64,000 bases of DNA. Source: Peromyscus leucopus (Eukaryota; Chordata; Mammalia; Rodentia; Cricetidae). Positions 15,156 through 48,400 of this stretch are shown here, in pieces (the stretch's first letter is position 1; the number at the start of each line of letters is the position of its first letter). The DNA is taken from assembly GCF_004664715.2 (NCBI RefSeq), contig NC_051072.1, positions 41,905,142-41,969,141 on the forward strand. Reading direction: 5' to 3'. Both the position numbers and the translations under genes were made by a program. Below the pieces are notes generated by a model. The model saw only the letters and a program-made list of their open reading frames with translations. It was not told the origin of the DNA and made no database searches.

Positions 15156-18100
15156 ACTGCTTGCTACACAGTGAACTCACCCTCTCTTACCCTTCAAACA
15201 AGTGAGACATGAAAATAAGGTGCTCGTTCAGATGCATCACATAGTGGTTTTTGTTCTAGAAAAGAGACCTTTAGCGTTTTTATCTGTCCTTAAACCTGGG
15301 CGTGGTGGTACACACCCTTAGTCCCAGCACTTGGGAACAGAGGCGGGTGGATCTCTGAGTTTGAGGCAGCCTGGTCTCCAGAACAGCCAAAGCTACAAAG
15401 AGAAACCTTGTCTTGAAAAACAAAAAGCAAAAAACAACAACAACAAAAAAAAAAAAAAAAAAAAAGAAAGAAAGAAAGAAAGAAAGAAAGAAAAGGAAAA
15501 CAGCTGTTCTTACGTAGTTTAGAATGAAAATGTAAAATTAGCTACTTATCTCTTACAGATCAGTTTCAATTTTGTGACTGCGTATTTGTATATTAATTTT
15601 TATGGGACAGCATAGGTGCTTCGGATTGAACCCAGGGCCTCACAAATGTCTTCTACCCTAAGCCTCTTTTTTTTTGTTGTTGTTTAAATTATATTTTATT
15701 TATTAATGAGTAGGTACACGTGCCTGCACAGGTAGAGGTTCTTTTCTTCTGCTCTCTAGCTCAGGGATGGAACTCTGGTTGTCAAGCTTGACAGTAAGCA
15801 CCCTTACCCTCTGAATCATCTTGCATGCCCCTGAGAGTTTTTTTTTTTTAATTGTTAAAATGCTTGCTGTTTTTCTTTCATCTCCATATTCCTTATCAGT
15901 TCTGTCTTCATTGTAGTAGTTGATAGAAGAGTAGCATAAGTCTGCCAAGGTCCTTGTTATAGAAAAGAATCCTGTGTCTAATAAAATGTCTGTGTGGGGC
16001 TGCAGAGATGGCTCACTGAATACCGTGTTTACCGATGGGAGTGTGAGGATCAGAGCTTGGATCCCTAGAGCCCTCGTAAAAGCCATGTGGGCATAGTGGC
16101 CCACCTGTAATCCCAGGGTGTGGGATATGGAGACAGAAGTCCTGGAGCAAACTTGTTAACTAGATTAGCCTGAGTGGGGAGCTCTGGGCCCAGTGAGAGA
16201 CCCACTTCACTGTATAAGGTGGACGCTCATTAAAGAAAACACTACTTGTATGCACTTACACACCCTTACTCAAATGAACATATGAAACACATTTGCATGC
16301 ATGTATACATATTTATACATGTTATAGACAGGCATATAATGCCTGTGTGAAGCCCTTGGCTGCACCAGGACTTAGGCAATGTTAACCTCTTTCTGCCACT
16401 TTGACTAGATGCCCATAGTTACACATGTTGCTTCAATAGTTTAAGATGCTTAAACTTTTGAGGACAGTTATTCTCTCTGCTTTTATTCAGGAGTTATTTT
16501 AAGCTATTTGGAAAATGGATTATTTCATTGCACAGTGCGTCTTTTTTTTCCTAATTAGAATCTTATTTTTTTCTTAATGTAGCGTATATAATTTTATAGC
16601 ATGTAAATGAATTTTGAACATTGAATCCTTAGTCTTTTTTTTGTCCTAAAATATTTTTCTTGAATTTTAAATATACAGAGAAAATTTGTGGGAAGTGTGA
16701 CAAGTTTTAACTTGAGAATCACGACTGCAAGCATTAAAATGATTCTCAGGGTTATAATGCCATTGTGTGTCTTGTCATGTAATGGGGAAATGCAGGAAGT
16801 TTGAGCTTTCTTCCACTAAGAACTTTTTTCCCCCACAATTTTTTTTTTTTCAGGAAAGCAAGAGTGCTCAAAAGGGATTTAATGAGCAATTCATGGAGAT
16901 TATAAAGTACACAGATGTGATCTGTAGCAGGAGGAAGGGAGTCTATAGAGTCTCAAGTTCTCAAGGATGTGCATCTAGTGTTAGGTTTCAGACAACCCAC
17001 ATGAATGTTATGCTTTTGGAAGCATCTCTTTGGTGTTTGTGGAGAGCATCATTTGTCATGTTTTTAATTGCAGCAGTGGAAGAAACAGGAGGGGACTCTT
17101 GGAAGTACAGTTTGAGGGTGAGTATAATGAAAGAAAAGTTGATGGGGAGGGTGAGTACTGTCAAAAGAAAAGTTGATGGGGAGGGTGAGTACTAATGGAA
17201 GAAAAGTTGATGGGAGGGTGAGTACTAATGGAAGAAAAGTTGATGGGAGGGTGAGTACTAATGGAAGAAAGTTGATGGGGGAGGGTGAGTACTAATGGAA
17301 GAAAGTTGATGGGGGAGGGTGAGTACTAATGGAAGAAAGTTGATGGGGGAGGGCGAGTACTAATGGAAGAAAAGTTGATGGGAGGGCGAGTACTAATGGA
17401 AGAAAAGTTGATGGGGAGGGTGAGTATAATGGAAGAAAAGTTGATGGGGAGGTGAGTATAATGGAAGAAAAGTTGATGGGGAGGGTGAGTATAATGGAAG
17501 AAAAGTTGGTGGGGAGGCGTTAGTGTGAATCTAAAACTCCACATCGGGGTTGGATAGAGGTAACTGCTTGTAATTGCAAAAGTATTCCGGAGAAAATGAA
17601 TTAAATTATGGATTTTAGTCAAAACTTTTTTATTAAGATGGGGATGGCAGGCTGCTATTTTCTTTGTTAATTAGCTTGTTTGAGAAATAATTGTCATTGT
17701 ACAAATAGAAAATATTTAAATGAAACCTACTACTTTTGCATTAGGATGGTCCCCTTTAAATATTTTCTTGTTTTTGAGATCTTTTCATTTATTTATTTTG
17801 GTTTTTCGAGACAGAGTTTCTCTGTGTAGCCCTGTGTCCTAGAACTTACTTTGTAGACAGGGCTAGCCTCAAACTCACAAAGATCCTCCTATCTCTCCCT
17901 TCTGAGTGCTGGGGTTAAAGGCGCGCACCACCACTGCCCAGAGATACCTTACTTTTTTTTTTTTTTTTTTTTTTTTAAATGCTGAATGCCATTTATTGAA
18001 GGAGGGAGGAGGTCTTAAATACAGGCTTACAGCACAAATGGGAGAACCCTGGAGGGCAGAAGTTCTCTACTGATGTTTTACAATCTGGCATGTAATCTGT

Positions 18101-21100
18101 TAACGCCCATTATGCAGGATACACAGACAAGGAACTTCCCTTAAGCATTCAGGAGGGTGGAACCTGGCAGGGAATTAGCATAGGGAGGATATCAAGGTCA
18201 AGGTCAGCAAGCAAGGAACAGTTACCCAAAATGGGGGATAGGGCCCTACAGGTCCCCCTTTTACTAAAAAATGAGCTTCTGACTTGGGTTGAGTGGGATG
18301 TCAGCAGGTCACCTTACCATCATGGAGACGCCTTCCCAGGCCACACAGGCGCTCTGACTTAGGCTGATACCTTACTTTTTAATAAAGTATTTATTGTTTT
18401 ACAGTTTCATACACTAATATAGTGATATGCTATATTACTCTTACCACTTAGTATGATTCTCAGAAGGATACTTTTAAAACACATTTATTGGTAAGATAAA
18501 AATGTTGTCTTCAGGAATATTTGTAAAATGTGCTTATGGAGCTGTTCTTTGTTAATTATTTTTACGTTACTTGCTAATTTTTTGTGTTGTTGTGTTTGTT
18601 GGAGAGGATGGGGAGGATGACTGGGTTTTACAGTATAGACCCAGCTAATCTTGAACTTGAAGAGATAGGCCTCTTTCTGCCTCTCAAGTGCTGGGATTAA
18701 AGACATGTGCCACCACATACATGGCTGGTTTTGTTTGTTTTTGTTTTCTGTTTTAAATATTTAATTAATTAATTTTATTTAGAATCAAGGTCTCACTATA
18801 TAGTCCTGACTGGTCTGAAATTCAGCATGTAGACCAGACTGGCTTTGTTCAGAGAGCTGCCTGCCTCTGCCTCCCAAGTGCTGGCATACTTGGCAAGATT
18901 TTATTTTTATTTTATGTATATATGTATGTGTCTTTGTGTAGGTTTGTGCACATCAGTGTAGTGCCCATGAGACCAGAAGAGGATATTGGTCCACTGGGGC
19001 TGGTGATATAGGCAGCTCCCTGGCATGGATGACTTTTAAAACAAATTTAAAAAAATGTGTATGCACGTTTTGCCTCCATATAGTCTGTGTACCTCATGTG
19101 TGTCTATTACCCAATGGGGCCAGAAGGTGGTGCTGGAACTGGTGTTACAGAGGGAGTTATCTGCCTTTGGGTGCTGGGATTCAGACCTGGGTCCCCTGGT
19201 CTTCACTTGGTGCTTTTCACCTCTGAACCATCTCTCTACCCCCATGACTCAGTGCTTCTTTCTTGTTGCTGTTTATTTACTTTAAAGCTTTCTTTAGTTA
19301 GCAGTTCATTTATTCTTTTTATTATTTTTTAAAGATTTACTTATTTTATTTTATGTATATTAGTGTTTTGCCCATGTTTACGTATATGAACTATGTGTGT
19401 GCTTTGTGTCCAGTAGTTTTATGGGTGTTGGATCCTAAGGAACAGGCATTATAGTTGGTTGTGAGCTACCATGTGGGTGCTGGGAACTGAACCTGGGTCT
19501 TCTACAGGAGTGGCAAGTGCCTTTAATTGATGAGCTATCTCTGCAGCACATGCTTGAATACTTTTAAGAATCCAGATACAGCTGGAGAGATGGTTCAGTG
19601 ATTAGGAGCATTTGTTCCTATTGCAGAGGACCTGGCTTCATTCAGTTCCTAATACTGACATGAGGACTCAGAACCATCCTTAACTCCAGTTTCAGGAGGT
19701 CCAATGCCTTCTGGTTCCATGGGCACCAAACATACATGTGGTTCACTTACATACATGCAGGCAAAAACCCCTACACATAAAATAAAAATATTTAAACAAA
19801 AAGAATCCAATTAAAGCATTCTTTATGTAGCTTAATAGTTTCTGTTACTGTTTGTGTTTCTTAAATGGTGCATTGAATTTACAAACTTTGGTGGGTGGCC
19901 TTATCTATGAAAACACATTTAAATATAATAACTCTGTACTAGATACTCAGTCATTTTGCTTACATATAAGTGAGTATGGTCTGTGGAACGATTTTTAAAG
20001 TACAACGAATTAAAGATACTTTGAGCTGAGTGATGGTGGCACACATCTTTAATCCCAGTACTCAGCAGGCAGAGGCAGGCGGATATTGTGAGTTTGAGCC
20101 CAGCCTTGATCTACAGAATGAGTTCCCGAACAGCCAGGGCTACACAGAGAAACCCAGTCTTGAGAAACAAAACCAAACAAACTTTATATACATGACACCA
20201 AATGATTGAAACACTGAAAGAAGTTTTCTGTTATGAATTGACTTCATCTTGAATTCCTTTGTGTTATTTTTTAGACATGGTGGTAGAGATAGAAGCCAGG
20301 GCTTCATGATGTCCTACTGGGAATCTGGTCAAGCACTAAGCCCCAGCCCCAGTAGTTCTGTTTTTTAAGAAATCAACAGTTAGAAATACTTGTTTATAAT
20401 TTGAAGGATGAGTGTTCCCTTGCTTTATTGCAGTAGCCAATACAATATGGCATTTTTTTTCTTAACTAAGAATCTGTTCTTTTTCCTCCCTCTCTAGCCT
20501 TGCACAGAAGTATTATTTATAGATATATTCCACGAATATAATCAAACTCTTACTCCAGTACTACTAGAAATGATGCAAACTCTTGATGGTAAGTTGTGGT
20601 TTATGATAGTTTTGCCATTTAATGTTCAGCTAGAGTTGCCTAAATGCCAACTGTGTTCACTGCTCTGTTTTGGTCATACACTGAATTTGAGAAAGACTGA
20701 ATGTGTTCTTTTCCTGCAAGAGTGGCATTTGAAGTCAGCCTTGAATTACAGTTTTGAATATGATGCATCTTGCTGTTGTAAACATAACACCATAAACCAA
20801 ATGGCAGGTGTAGTACTTGGGGAAACTTTCTCTAGAGCATGTTGTAGAAAGTAGTTAGAAAGGCTCAAATAATTTGTTAGCTTTATAGTTGTAGCAGTTA
20901 GATAGGGGATAGATGTAAAAGAAGATGGCAAAGCAAATTTTGGATATTTGATTATTATATTTTTATGCAAGTAGTTAATTGCTAATAACTTTCCTTAGAC
21001 TGTCAAATGACCCAGCAACTTTTGGATAGTTAGTAGTTAATTACTAAGTGACTTTGATTAGACTATAAGTTTCAGGATATATTGGTCACACTGGCTTTAT

Positions 21101-24100: not shown

Positions 24101-27100
24101 GAATGCACTGTTAATCAAAGATGCTGGTATGTTGGACTTAAGTGATTTAGAAATGTATTTATCCAATAGATAGAGGATCTATTTTGTGGTAGGTTTTGTG
24201 CTGTGAGAATTGTGATGTAAAAGTAGCTAGAATATAGGGATTGTCAGTTGCAGGAGATAATCAGGTATACAGTTAATTCTACCATTGTATGAATAGTTAA
24301 TGCTAAAGCATGTGCTAAAAACTAGGGAGTTATGCAAGGGAAAGTTTCCCTTTTAAAGAACTGTAGCATCCAATTGCAAGATTAAGTAGGAGTCAGGTAC
24401 ACAAGGTGAGGGTGCCAGAGTAGGTTTCCAGGAGGACTGCAGTGTTTAGGAGGACTTGAAGGTAAGATGGGCTAGTAGAGGGGGAGTTTAACATCTGAGT
24501 GTACTTTGGTTTAACTGGACAGTAACAAGCAGTTCAGGGATTGTTGTGCAAGATGAGCCAGAGAAAAATAAATTGGGACCAGATCATAAAATACAGCTTC
24601 CATTCAGAATCAGATACTGTTTTGAAATTGACCCTTTAGACTGGATTTAGTTTTCTGTTTGAAAATACTGAAGAGTGGTTGGGAAAAGCCTGGAATCAAA
24701 TAATTTAAGCAGTTTTTCTAAAATGCTTTTAGTAATCTCTATTCTATGTTAATATTATATATTTTCCTTAATATATTTCATGTTTCAAAGTAGGTTCCGA
24801 GTTTTATATAAGACCAAATATCTAAAATCTTCAATTTCTTTCTTTTTTCTTCCCAGTGTATAATGCTGTGGGATTAGCTGCTTTTGAGCTGTTTGACAGT
24901 GTTGATTTTGATCTGTGGTTTAAAAAACAACTTCTTCCAGAATTACAAGTTTCTCATAATAGGCAAGTAAACACCTACTTTACCTTCTTGATTTTTGAAG
25001 TTTAAAAAAAAAAAAGTATGATTTTGTTTATATTTAGCACAAAAAAGAATATAAGACTTACAAATATTATAACAAATATAAGCAAAAGAGTTATCTTTTT
25101 TAAAAAAAAGATTTATTTATTTATTATGTATACAGTGTTCTGTCTTGCATGTATGCCTGCAAGCCAGAAGAGGGCACCAGATCTCATTACAGATGGTTGT
25201 GAGCCACCATGTGGTTGCTGGGAATTGAACTTAGTAGCTCTGGAAGAGCAGCCAGCGCTCTTAACCTCTGAGCCATCTCTCCAGCCCAAGAGTTATCTTT
25301 TATGTTACTTTAACTTAAGTGTAAATTCTGAAAGAAGTATTTGATGTAATGAAATAATTTGTAGGCGAAAAGAAATAGAACTTTATGTAGAGATGAAGGT
25401 AGAGTTCTCTGAGTTTCTGGAAGAAACTGTGCACAAAATAAGACTGTTGGTGGCAACCAGATCTGAGATCATAATCAGCCCAACCAAAGTGATATTCAGG
25501 AAGAGTGACTGTTGTGGAGACCTTGAGAGAAAACAGAGGAGATGGAGATGCCTTGCTTATACAGAAATTGAACGTACTTTGAGTTTCGACAGAGGTGCCT
25601 AATTTATTATTACCAGCTCCATATGGCAGTTAGTAGCACTTTTGCCCAATTCTTTTGCTTTGCATTGTGTATTTTAATCTGTAATGGACCAAATGTAATC
25701 AAGAAATCCAACACTGTCTCCCGACCTCTGTGAAGACTGTGAACATACACATACTCTCCATACCCTCCACATTACACATCATGTGCGCATGCATATGTGT
25801 GCAGACACACAATTAAAACCTCTTAAAATATAACAAATTAGAGACTATGAAAAGTATTATAAGAGGCTTTTTTAGGGCATGTGTGTAAAGGATCAGATGA
25901 GCTACTTCTGTGTATCTAGTATCTTGTAGTCAGCATAGTACACAGTCTTAGATTAGTAAATATTTGTTGGCTACATTACTGGATGAATAGAAGACCATCT
26001 ATATGTAGATTATTTTATAAATATTTAAGAGTCATTGAATTAGAGATCTGGATCCTAGCACTCAAGAAGCCAAAGCAAGAAGACCTTGGGTTTGAGGCCA
26101 GCTTGCATCACGTAGTGAATTTGAGGCCACCCAGAGCAGCATAAAGAAATCTGACTTCAGTCCACAAACACCAGCAAAGTTAAAAACCTGAAGATACTTT
26201 AAAAAAAATTTGACCAGTTAAGTAGTAACTTATGGCTTCTCCTACTCAGTCATTGATTCAGTTACAAGTGTTTTAGCACTTGGAATTTACTGCCTCCTCT
26301 GGAGGCTGCTGTGTATGAAGTAACCTCTGACAGTGCTTTGAAGGAGTGGGAACACACTCACTAGAGAGCAATGGAAGGCCATGTGTTTGAAGACCTCACT
26401 GCCTCATGCAGCACCTCCCCTCATTTGCCACTGAACACTTTGAAATGTGCTTAGTGCTGCTGAGGAAATGAGTTTTCAGTTCATTTCAACTTCAAAGCCA
26501 GAGCTCTGTAAAATGTACTCTGAGTATGTGTTGAAGTGATGATACTGTATGTTTGGATAAACCAGAAATACTTGGCTTGCTTCATATTTTCTGTTAGATT
26601 AGTGACCTGGACCAGTGTTTCTCAAAGTTTAACGTACGTTTGTTTGACTCACTTGGTAGGTTGTCCTGTTATGTGCAAGTCCTGGTCTAGTAAGTGTTGC
26701 ACATAGGCCAGTGCTTTCCCAGCCCATGATGCTGCTGTCAGTTCAGGGACAGAACTCCGAGGCCTGGTTACTGTATGCCTAAGCTGGCTGGATATGACTG
26801 TGTCTCCTTAGAATTTCTGAGTTTCATTTTCTTTATTTCAAGTAGAACTGAGCATGGAAATCTCTGAGATTTCAGTCTTAAGGCTGATAGGTTTGTTATT
26901 TCACACTGCACATGTCTTGTTATTACTGATTTTGTGACTATTCAAACATTCCTATCCCTTGAAATGGCATTTCTCCACTTTTCATTTAAGTGGTATTTAT
27001 CTTACAGGTTCTCTCAGATCTGTGTACATTTGCTGTGTTTTAACTTTTCCTGGCCTGTATACTTTGGGGCCAAGGAATGTTTACATACATTTTTTGAAAC

Positions 27101-30100
27101 TTAGTGAGCATTTTTTTCCTGTTTGCTCAATCATCTTTTAAAATTGTGACCTTCTAAAATAACTGTGTACTCATCAGTTTGTTTCATTTATACCCAGAAA
27201 TATAATTTTGTCACTTAAAGTTTATGTCAAGAAGATATTTTTTTTAATAGACTTCTAGGATAGAAATATTTTGAATTTTAATTTGTGATTTTTCTTCTTA
27301 CCTAAGAAAAATCTTGGGAAATTTCACTTTAATAAAAACAATCAGAAAAATTATGTATTTATTACTGCTAATTCTTTACAATTTCAATGATATGTCACCA
27401 TATTTGTTCTGAGTCATGTTTGATAATTGCATACCTCTTTTAAAATCATTTAGCTAGAATCAGCAAGCTTATACAAATATTACTTAGATAAACATAAAAG
27501 CCTTTCACAATGATCTGAAAGTAATATTTATGAGATTGATGGAAATAGAAACATTGAATATAGGGTGTTACTGTTAAGATCAATCCATGTGAGTTTGTTT
27601 AATGGGTAATAGGAATTTATCAAGATATAAACAGGAAATACACTCATGAATATAGAACCAAGTAAATAGCTGAAGTTGTCCTCTGTTCTGACTGGGAGCG
27701 AATCCACCTGGCAGTTGGATCAGACCAGGAAGCAGGCAGCAGGGAGAAGGTACTTGTGACCCTTCTCCCTTTTAAGAGGTTGCTACTATACAATAGAGAA
27801 GCATCACCTTCAGACCCGATAGCCCAAGGTCATATGTGGAGCAGATACCTCTACGTGTTATTAGTATTATTTTGATACAGAGACCTGCCAGCTGCAGGAT
27901 TTATGGTGTTAGCATTGTTTGTGGTTCCTCGAGAAAGAGAAATTTGTATACCTCTGTGCTTCAAATTGCTTTATGTGTGATACTGCGGATCCAACCTTGG
28001 ATCTTCCTCATGTGAGACAAGTGCTTTGCCACAGAGAGTCACCCTAGCCCTTGCATTTTGACCCAGGGCGTGTCCTCACTCAAGCACTCCTTGCACTCAC
28101 TGTCTCAGTGTCCTAGATGCTGGGGTTACTGACCATTACAGTTCATTAACACAGAAGAATCAGAACACTATGTATGCACCTAAGAACTTTGATTTCCTTA
28201 GATCAGGACACTATTGTTTCTATTTAGAAGGTGATTTTTATCTAAATGCAAATTACATTTTTTTACTACTCTAAATGAAGCCTCTTAAAATACTGAACAT
28301 TTGAATTTTCTGATTTTTTTTTTCTCTTCCACCTAGGTATAAACCGTTGCGACGCAGGGTGATTTGGCTCATTGGTCAGTGGATTTCTGTGAAATTCAAG
28401 TCTGACATGAGACCCATGCTGTATGAAGCAATCTGTAACTTGCTTCAAGATCAGGATTTAGTGGTATGTCAGCCTGCCGAATCAGTGTCTCTAGACCTCA
28501 GAACCTCCTCTACCCTGTTCAGAATTCTTTCTTTCTTAAAATGCTCTAGAGACCGCATTGCGCCCCTTTAATCCCAGCTTCAGAGCACGATCTCTGTATC
28601 GAGCCTGCTACGATGATAGAAAGCAAACTACATAGAGAAATTCGAAAAAAAAAAAAGAAAAAAAAGAAAAAAAAAAAAAAAGAAAAATAGCTCTAGAGAA
28701 TATGCTCGTTACTATTACAGGTGTAGGAAAGTGTAGCACTTAGGAAAGGAATGGGTTCTTAACCAGGAAACAAAGGTTTTAGATATTATTGTAAAGACCA
28801 GAAGGTAGAATATAGTCATGTTACGTGGTTTGAGAACTAAAAGTATGTTAGCTGATGCCAGCTTGGCTGATAAAGTCAGAATACGAAGAAGAAAATGCTG
28901 CTCTGTGTACACCCAGATGATGTGCTGGCTGCAATGAAATATGTGTCCTAGAGTCTGGAGCTTGTCTGTTGGGTTTAGAAAGCCTCAGCTCATTTGGGAG
29001 TTAGGAAGCTTTGCTCTAACTGAGGTTAAATTAAAGGTGGGAGCTTGAACGCCCCCTTCTCCCTTCCTTCCTGCACCCTTCACTTGCGTGACTTCCAGAT
29101 GGCCGGGTTCCTTGTTTTCATGGAGCTCTATTTTCTCTCTTTCCTGGCATCTCCTGCATGCTGCTCTCCTTTGGTCCTGTGCTCTCCATTTACCTAATGG
29201 CAAAGTATTTTTTTTTTCTTGGAAATGCCTACTGCCATAAAGGCTTCTTAAGCAATTACAGAAAAACTGGAAAGGTCAAGAAAATGATGCTTGTACTTTT
29301 TGTCACTTTTTAAACTAATGGTGACATCCTTTCAGTTCCACATGGCATGTGCCCTGTGATTTAATATAGACAAAAACAGGAAAGTGGTTTGGAATAAGTT
29401 GTCTGTCATTAAGAACTAATGATGTTCAGTAGTTATAAGAATGATGATTAAAAAACTCATATTGTACTTTGATTTTTTTTTTTTTTAGGTCCGAATTGAA
29501 ACAGCAACAACTCTGAAGTTAAATATCCTTCAAAAAAATTTTTTTTGCAACCTTCTTGCAATAAAGTTTTTAAAACTTAATTTATTTGATGTGTATGGGT
29601 GTTTTGCCTACAAGCTTGTGCCATATATGGACCTAATTGCCTGAGGAGGCAAGAAGAAATTTTCAGATCCCCTGGAACTGGAGTTAATGTATGGTTGTGA
29701 GCTGCCCCATGGGTTCTGGGAATCGAACTCAGGTCCTCTGGAAGAACAGCCAGTGCTCTTACCCACTGACCCATCTCTCTAACCCTACAACAATTTTAAT
29801 TAAAAAAAATAATGAAACTTGAAAAAAACTTTCTAAAGGACTTAACTGTAAAGAAGTTCAGCTTTTTTGTTGTTTTGAATTACCTGGCCTGGAATTCTAC
29901 ACAGTCAAGACCAGCCTTCAACTTCCGGCCCCCCTGCTTCTGCCTCCCAGTGTGGGTACTGTAGGTCTGCACTGTCACACTGAGCCTTATGGTTCACATT
30001 TTAAAATTGGGTACTTCGTGAAATTGATAGGCTAGTTAAATGTATTTTCCCCAACATGTATGTTTTATAAACATATATTTGTTATTTCAATGATGTAGAT

Positions 30101-30312
30101 TTATTTTCCTCTTGATAAATTTCGTGCATTTTCAGTATTCCTTAACAGCTTTTTACCTGTTGATGATTTTGAATTTAGAACAGATCAATTTTTACCGGTA
30201 AGAATATTAGTTTCAGGGTTTTATAACAATTTCTACTTATGTCTTTGGAGTACATATATTTTATAACTGAATTTATATGTATTTTTAATATTGAAAAAAC
30301 ATACCTTTATTT

Positions 30313-45400: not shown

Positions 45401-48400
45401 TGTATGTGGAATTTCTTAAAAGGCACAGATACATATAGTCTTGATTCAAATATATGTCATATTGCCATTTTGATAGGATGATAATATTTCGACTTTTTAA
45501 CTTTTTAATAATAAATAGAACTTTGTTGCTAGTACTTATTATAAGGACTGTCCTAAAAGAGTCTTATTTATCTTATATAAATTATTTTCTGAGGCAGGTA
45601 ATTGATTGGTGGTGGGAGGGATCTTAGAATGTCTTATTATAAGTTGTATTTATACTTCCCCTAGGGACTAGGAGCAGAAAGCAAGAACCTGTACCCTTTC
45701 CTGCTCCCAGTTATCCAGCTGAGTACAGATGTTTCCCAGCCTCCTCATGTCTATCTTCTGGAAGATGGTCTAGAACTATGGTAAGAGGAATAACTCGATA
45801 CTGTGGATTACTCTACTGCTGCCTTCTCTACTTGTGTTCCAGTAGAGTAGAGGTCATGTAACAAGGCTTTGAATACTCAGCATTTAATAATAAGTACAAG
45901 AAGTTGTTATTCTCCAACTGTTTTCTTTTTTCCAGCTATTGCTCAGTGTAGGCTCTGATACAGTTAAAGCGAAATATCTCTGCTGTTGAGAGCACTGGTA
46001 TGGTTCCCAACACCCACATGGTAGTTCACAACAATCTGTAACTCCAGTTCCCAGGGATCTGACACCCTTTTCTGTCATTCACAGCCACTGCATGCATTTG
46101 GTGCATAGCCAAAAATGCAGGCATAACACTTACATAAAAAGCAAACAAACAAACAAATATTTTAAAAGAGAGAAATTTTAACAGAGACCATGCTTCATTT
46201 CATATTTGGAATTTGACCTGTAAGCTAGGCATCTTGGTAACTTTCAGAAACAAAAATTGATCTTAAAATTTTGAGTCTTTGAAATAAGATGTCTTGGGGA
46301 CATTGAGTTGTTTTCAACCTCTTGTCCGCCTTGCCAGTGGGTGCCCAGATGCTGGAGCTCAGCTCCACACACTGCTGTGAACATTTGCTCTTTGCCCTTC
46401 TGCCCAACTTCTCCCTTTTTTCTTTACTTGGTTTTGCTTAGAAATTAAGCACTTTCATTTGGGTTAGGGTTAGCTCACTGGTAGCATGATTCTCTCCAAT
46501 TTGCAAGGCCCTGAGAGCAATCCTCTTATATAAACAGCAGTATAAAGATACAAAAATGAAATTCCAGAGCTTTGATTCTCAGAAATTGTTTTTGGTGCAA
46601 ATTATTAAATTGTAAATAAATGCTCTGTATCAGAATATTGGATTAATGGCATTAAATGTAACTGGGTAGACTTTTACTGGTTGGAATGTACTCTTGATTG
46701 TCTTCTAGATTATTATTTGAGCAGTTTCTAGAGCAGTGGTTCTCAACCTTCCTAATGATGTTACCTTTTATGGTATGAACCCTAAACATTAAATTATTTT
46801 CATTGTTGCTTCATAACTAATTTTGCTACTGTTCTGAATTGTAATATAAATATTTGTGTTTTCCAGTGGTCTTAGGTGACCCCCTATGAAAGGGTCATTT
46901 GACCCCCAGGAGTCACAACCCACAGGTTGAGACCTGATGATCTAGATAGTGGTTCTGAATCAGAAGGTTGTTGAAATCTGTAATTCATGGGTTTGTATCT
47001 GTATAAGGGTGGGTTGCTCCGGGTCGGACCTTGCAGAGTTTTTGGCACAGGGCAGATATTTTTGTGTCACATGTTGCAGATGTGCTGCAGCTGCTCCACG
47101 CCATTTCAGTGTCAGAGCAGTCAGCCAGGACGGAATCAGTAGACAAACATCATTGTAGAAAATAGAATGTGGCTGGAATTTTCCCCACGACCTGTGAGGC
47201 CTGCCAATACCTGCTTCAGATTATAATTATAAATTAAAATATTAATCTTTGTTTATGAACTTACAGGTTGTGGATGCCATCACATATTAGGAAAACTTAA
47301 AATAGTCTAAGTTTATAGCTTCAGAATTCTGGTTTTGTAGACAGTTTTGTTTCTGGTACTGAGGATTGAACCGAGGGCCTTGGACCTGCTAGATTAAGAT
47401 TTCTACCACTGAGATGTACCTGCAACTTTCTTCGGCTTTTACTTTTTTGCTTTTGAGTTAAGGTTTCACTCTAGGAAAGTCTGCCTAGCTCAAGGTGGCC
47501 TTGAACTTGAAGTCCTCTTGTCTTAGTACCTGAGTACTTATAGTACCTCTTGCCTTAGTATCCGAGTACTTGCAGCCCTCTTGCCTTAGTGCCTGAGTAC
47601 TTGCCGGTCCTCTTGCTTTAGTTCTCTTCTGAATATCTGAGATTACAGCTTTCACCACCAAGCTTGGCTCAGTATTACATACTTAACACTTTTGTTAAGT
47701 ATGTATGAGTTTTCGATGGGCAAGTTTTCAGTGGATTTTATAAACAATAATAAAATTGTGTGTTCTTTTAATGACATTTTTCCTTGTCTCAAGTTATTTG
47801 TAAAAAAAAAAAATTACGGTAATTATTTTCTGGAGATACTGTCTATGAAGTTGGCCTCTAATCACAGCAATTCTCTTTACCTCCTCAAGTGCTAGAATTA
47901 AAGGCATGAACCCCTGTGTCCATGTTTTTCGAGACAAGGTTTCTCTGTGTAGTGCCTGTTGTAGATCTCGCTCTGTATACCAGGCTGGCCTCAAACTCAC
48001 TGAGATCCACCTGGCTCTGCCTCCCAAGTGCTGGGATTAAAGGCGTGCACCACCACTGCCCAGCTCCAAGTTTTAGTTTTTTTTTTTTAAATGTATTAGT
48101 TGTTAAGTTTTTCTGGGTAAAGAACAAGCAGAAATTTTTTCATATACACTTTTCTTAATGGGCTTACACTCGCATTTGGAATCAGATACAAATGTCATTC
48201 CAAGTCCTACCACATTCAAGCATTCAAGTTTGATTGACATACATCCATATCTGTTAGTCTTGGTTTTTTTTTATCTGTAATGTTGGAGAAATAATTTCTA
48301 CCTTCTAGGATGGTTATGAGGGCTTAGCATTCATATGTAGCATTTAAAGCCTGTGAATACAAGATTACCTAGGATGTGAGTTTGTCCTTGTGGAATTGGG

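Follow-up and report, generated by a model that had tools for sequence, protein, structure and literature searches.

What becomes of an exon when its 5' splice site stands not once but twelve times in tandem? This question is raised by the importin-11 gene, IPO11, which occupies, on the + strand, the 64,000-nt stretch of Peromyscus leucopus DNA analysed here (the window). A human importin-11 sequence, used as the query to locate the exons, matched one exon after another, and 19 exons spliced in silico give 578 amino acids with no stop. Among the database matches listed, the snow vole Chionomys nivalis has the closest protein, an importin-11 with 97.9% identity over 578 amino acids; the initial lead on the window's protein had been weak (a yeast KAP120 chain, E 0.33). 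The 19-exon reading frame is that of importin-11. The exon at issue encodes a peptide that matches IPO11 residues 393-406 at 100% and recurs in most retrieved IPO11 orthologues, and skipping it shifts the frame. As the 19-exon reading frame holds, the exon end at 17117 is fixed, and in silico splicing agrees with the original prediction on the exon's 44-nt length, its limits and the exon that supplies the acceptor (Table 1).

Table 1. Features of the IPO11 donor array and adjoining exons, in window coordinates, with the predicted coding outcome of each donor.
Feature	Position	Strand	Basis or predicted outcome
44-nt internal IPO11 exon	17074-17117	+	In silico splicing; encodes (T) + 14 aa
Minisatellite, 12 units of 32-34 bp	17114-17517	+	TRF, unit alignment, unit lengths
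Donor 1, native, AGG/GTGAGT	17118-17123	+	Among the gene's 18 U2-type donors, first in U1 pairing and second in position score
Donor 2	17151-17156	+	+33 nt, in frame, stop-free, 11 aa added
Donor 3	17185-17190	+	+67 nt, frame shifted, stop met in next exon
Donor 4	17218-17223	+	+100 nt, stop within extension
Donor 5	17251-17256	+	+133 nt, stop within extension
Donor 6	17285-17290	+	+167 nt, stop within extension
Donor 7	17319-17324	+	+201 nt, frame-keeping length but stop within extension
Donor 8, GC variant	17353-17358	+	+235 nt, weak score, stop within extension
Donor 9, GC variant	17386-17391	+	+268 nt, weak score, stop within extension
Donor 10	17420-17425	+	+302 nt, stop within extension
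Donor 11, GAG/GTGAGT	17452-17457	+	+334 nt, top position score of the 12, stop within extension
Donor 12	17485-17490	+	+367 nt, stop within extension
GGGGAGG, array right edge, then non-repeat sequence	17511-17517	+	Unit alignment
Next IPO11 exon, acceptor partner of the 44-nt exon	20498-20588	+	30 aa encoded; importin-11 match

Other features of the gene are recorded here in their own right. The 44-nt exon has a NAGNAG acceptor (GCAGCAG, 17070-17076), the second AG of which would give a stop-free protein shorter by one amino acid. A GC-AG intron at 24963-28336 (exon end 24962, AATAG/GCAAGT) is required for the open reading frame. At 29523-30156 there is an AT-AC intron, with donor ATATCCTT, a TTCCTTAAC-like branch motif and an AC acceptor, which we take to resemble the U12 type on the strength of these motifs. 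Another intronic minisatellite lies at 47505-47622 (32 bp x 3.7, 80% matches), and an Rfam search gave no match at the gathering threshold. Several residues of the importin-11 protein (window 4814-58742) are shared with the Scotinomys teguina record and unlike those of Chionomys, a pattern that hints at a neotomine cricetid; the changes Q-to-D, Q-to-L and N-to-K (TLDG, DLWFKK) differ from both.

Minisatellites consist of head-to-tail units of roughly 10-100 bp, and a variable copy number is common in them though not required. The array at 17114-17517 is a minisatellite, its units lying head to tail, for which TRF reports a period of 33, 12.1 copies, 93% matches and a score of 641. It is 404 bp long, with donor motifs 32-34 nt apart, and its left edge is GAGG, the final four bases of the 44-nt exon; the native 5' splice site lies within unit 1. 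The motif reads GTGAGT in ten of the twelve units and GCGAGT in two (17353 and 17386), and at 17452 GAG precedes it in place of AGG. The original prediction had described just such an array, with twelve copies of a 32-34-bp unit, the native donor as unit 1, and GCGAGT confined to units 8 and 9; TRF, the unit lengths and the motif positions bear it out on each count. The array differs in composition from the remaining intron, being 77% purine versus 48%, with 5.7 versus 1.1 runs of at least three G per 100 nt, and each unit contains G-runs. When the array region was searched against the assembly (2.475 Gb, 1,840 contigs), one match was found, on contig C10. Separately, seven units (3-9) carry TACTAAT directly after the donor (17190-17397). 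This heptamer is close to an optimal branch-point sequence.

The closest precedent is the gene IFI6 (6-16, G1P3), in which Turri, Cuin and Porter reportedly described, in 1995 (Nucleic Acids Res 23:1854), a minisatellite with multiple splice donor sites. In IFI6 two downstream repeat units act as donors and yield three mRNAs (PMC4526556). Units of both arrays carry splice donors at an exon end, and the IPO11 array is a further case of a type already known from IFI6, matching it in anatomy. However, donor use has been reported in RNA for IFI6, whereas the downstream donors of IPO11 are predicted from sequence, and an in-frame ladder of isoforms is impossible in IPO11, where donor 2 alone gives a stop-free frame. 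The original prediction knew of no description of a donor minisatellite at this gene. Among the literature matches listed there is no account of one in IPO11, but the kind is known from IFI6. Intron 11 of PAH likewise has, close downstream of its native donor, a donor-like site able to bind U1 (PMC5933811), comparable to those for which we predict U1 binding in IPO11, although PAH has one such site, at +18, and IPO11 has eleven, from +33 to +367. Intron gain through tandem duplication of AGGT segments has also been described (PMC4974935), and it too involves a splice-site-like motif within a tandemly duplicated segment; in contrast, the IPO11 unit is purine-rich, and no usable acceptor or new intron is expected from it.

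How such an array could form is indicated by its edges. With the exon-end GAGG on the left and GGGGAGG on the right, the simplest ancestor is one unit between two GAGG motifs. We propose that a 33-bp segment running from the exon-end GAGG to the intronic GGGGAGG was duplicated in tandem, and that internal duplication would later have carried the array to its 12 units. In the first duplication, two GAGG motifs separated by 33 bp probably mispaired through slippage or unequal exchange. As each unit straddles the boundary of exon and intron, the 5' splice site and the G-runs are re-created in every copy. The edge units 1, 10, 11 and 12 have ATAAT in common and units 3-9 have ACTAAT; units 5, 6 and 7 are identical to one another, as are units 3 and 4, and the GC donor variant is common to the adjacent units 8 and 9. 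Identical neighbours and the GC variant of units 8 and 9 fit local copying regardless of donor quality, and this one sequence suggests both the founder event and growth by internal duplication. Elsewhere in the window, a search for a precursor of the array gave only short matches of 8-14 bases. Selection on the donor columns was considered and is unsupported: their frequency of change was much like that of the remaining columns (three change events in 9 columns versus 13 in the other 26), and 14 of 35 circular 9-column windows show as few change events. Most likely, the array is young and mostly tolerated.

Donor quality was scored by position from a frequency table, and U1 pairing was predicted from the 5' end of U1. 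The score is 10.0 for the native donor, at least 10.0 for nine of the eleven extra donors and 3.2 for the two GC sites. Across the + strand of the window, 16 of 6,386 GT/GC sites score as high as the native donor or higher, and 10 of these, the native site included, lie in the array; from the site density outside it, 0.04 such sites would be predicted in 404 bp. The donor scoring that had been put forward as a check therefore gives ten units at or above the native score, native included, and two weak GC units. Predicted U1 pairing of the ten GTGAGT units ranges from -11.5 to -12.7 kcal/mol, compared with -11.0 kcal/mol at best for the other 17 U2-type donors of the gene. Concealment of the extra donors by RNA structure was also considered and finds support at most for unit 11 (mean unpaired 0.31), since the other 11 donors are about equally open in the predicted structure (0.54-0.65; native 0.60). 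The suggestion that the extra donors compete with the native one is hence plausible, given that nine of eleven score at least as well; that the exon's splicing changes is a prediction from sequence.

Donor-like minisatellites are not unique as DNA. A strict census of the genome for three copies of AGGGTGAGT at 22-28-nt gaps gave 23 + 23 overlapping matches, versus 2 + 11 for the reversed pattern used as control, and these 46 matches read as 11 arrays, the IPO11 array included. A looser census (three GTGAGT at 24-30-nt gaps) was ruled out as a specific signal, its 1,714 + 2,178 overlapping matches being fewer than the 2,277 + 3,086 of the reversed control. For the 10 other strict-census arrays, the 220 bases upstream and three frames were inspected by eye. 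The special point of the IPO11 array is its position on a real exon end. Two AGGGTGAGT minisatellites, L047 and L046, are larger, with 33 and 29 GGTGAGT motifs.

Of the 11 extra donors, donor 2 is the sole one whose use would leave the reading frame intact and stop-free; each of donors 3-12 ends in a premature stop. Competition between donors would therefore be likely to cost transcripts more than to yield new protein. We favour, with a probability of a little under 0.6, a history in which the border-spanning 33-bp duplication grew internally to 12 units and was tolerated, with the native donor dominant, donor 2 minor and donors 3-12 lost. The exon-adjacent donor 1 would stay the main donor, donor 2 would produce a minor in-frame form with 11 added amino acids, and splicing to donors 3-12 would yield transcripts with premature stops that would then be removed. 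Mouse embryos null for Ipo11 are dead by E11.5, whereas heterozygotes enjoy normal health and fertility (PMC7085267); enough correct product is therefore required, and partial loss is tolerable. Productive IPO11 splicing must persist, yet a sizeable loss could go unnoticed.

Traces of donor use were sought in proteins and in the genome. The 200 IPO11 proteins retrieved are representatives of 90% clusters, drawn from the best 120 of 1,308 (7,988 candidates scored) and the best 120 of 654. The donor-2 peptide occurs in none of these 200, among which rodents are few (Chionomys, Microtus, rat, Scotinomys, squirrels, marmots, Fukomys, guinea pig) and none is known to carry an array or to come from the species analysed here. 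The junction reads SLR-PC in 197 of the 200; the exceptions are horse (P0092, a different insert), Pteropus (P0110, residues added before the exon) and Varanus (P0138, SIR for SLR). An assembly-wide search with a 288-nt query of joined exons, which could reveal a retrocopy recording the donor in use, gave three matches, all of them IPO11's own exons.

Dominance of the native donor has evidence against it as well. Strengthening a downstream donor in a PAH minigene led to its use in place of the natural one in 8 of 30 and 26 of 30 clones, which implies that equal downstream donors could see heavy use (PMC5933811), and the openness of the downstream donors in the predicted structure counts in the same direction. 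The G-runs between units could favour donor 1, as no inter-unit G-run of the array lies on its exon side, though the exon's own GGGG at 17091 makes this contrast one of degree. According to PMC1877881, 40-45% of the elements examined may double as exonic silencers, and its donor reporter apparently tested elements other than G-runs. The PAH outcome stands against such a favouring of the first donor.

The same facts admit more active roles. If the downstream donors were heavily used, mostly with premature stops, array length would set the share of productive IPO11 mRNA. The nine extra GTGAGT donors, none scoring below the native one, and the premature stop that follows from every donor 3-12 agree with this, as does the PAH minigene, in which a downstream donor, once strengthened, can win (PMC5933811); but the embryonic lethality of the null in mice limits the possible loss (PMC7085267) and the donor columns are without sign of constraint, and we consider such a role unlikely. 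Alternatively, the extra sites may bind U1 downstream and so strengthen definition of the short exon, with the native donor still spliced. An exon of merely 44 nt whose skipping shifts the frame might profit from this, and the predicted pairing of the ten GTGAGT units surpasses that of the 17 other U2-type donors. PAH exon 11 inclusion is enhanced by U1 bound downstream of the 5' splice site (PMC5933811), engineered U1 particles likewise enhance inclusion elsewhere (PMC4822034), and, where exons are being defined, a downstream 5' splice site behaves as an exonic enhancer does (PMC8724738). Against it, the native donor is strong by itself and the retrieved orthologues, none of them known as an array carrier, contain the exon, so that help may be unnecessary; nor is selection evident in the donor columns. 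This too is improbable in our judgement. A combination of the two is a long shot: nine further strong sites for U1, all in a span of 400 nt, would aid recognition of the 44-nt exon and also divert a length-dependent share to premature stops or to importin-11 with 11 added amino acids, with repeat number setting output and differing between individuals.

The array or its unit number could be an assembly error, copy number in arrays being open to misassembly; however, the private unit changes follow an ordered pattern and the sole match sits in a contig of at least 41.9 Mb. An array of 404 bp is also short relative to modern reads, which counts against an artefact, and we regard one as very unlikely. 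Units acting as paired acceptor and donor sites, in intron gain or recursive splicing, are harder still to credit. An AG is followed closely by GT in the units, with GAG/GTGAGT in unit 11, but in so purine-rich an array a polypyrimidine tract before the AGs is not expected, and the units do not have the polypyrimidine-tract acceptor that such splicing calls for.

The IPO11 array offers a natural experiment in spliceosomal choice among many near-identical donors, in a gene essential for mouse embryos (PMC7085267). Natural variants in unit number, if they exist, would give a direct measure of the benefit or harm that additional U1 sites bring to a short exon. More generally, a duplication that spans an exon-intron border can multiply splice sites while leaving the native isoform's coding sequence unaltered.
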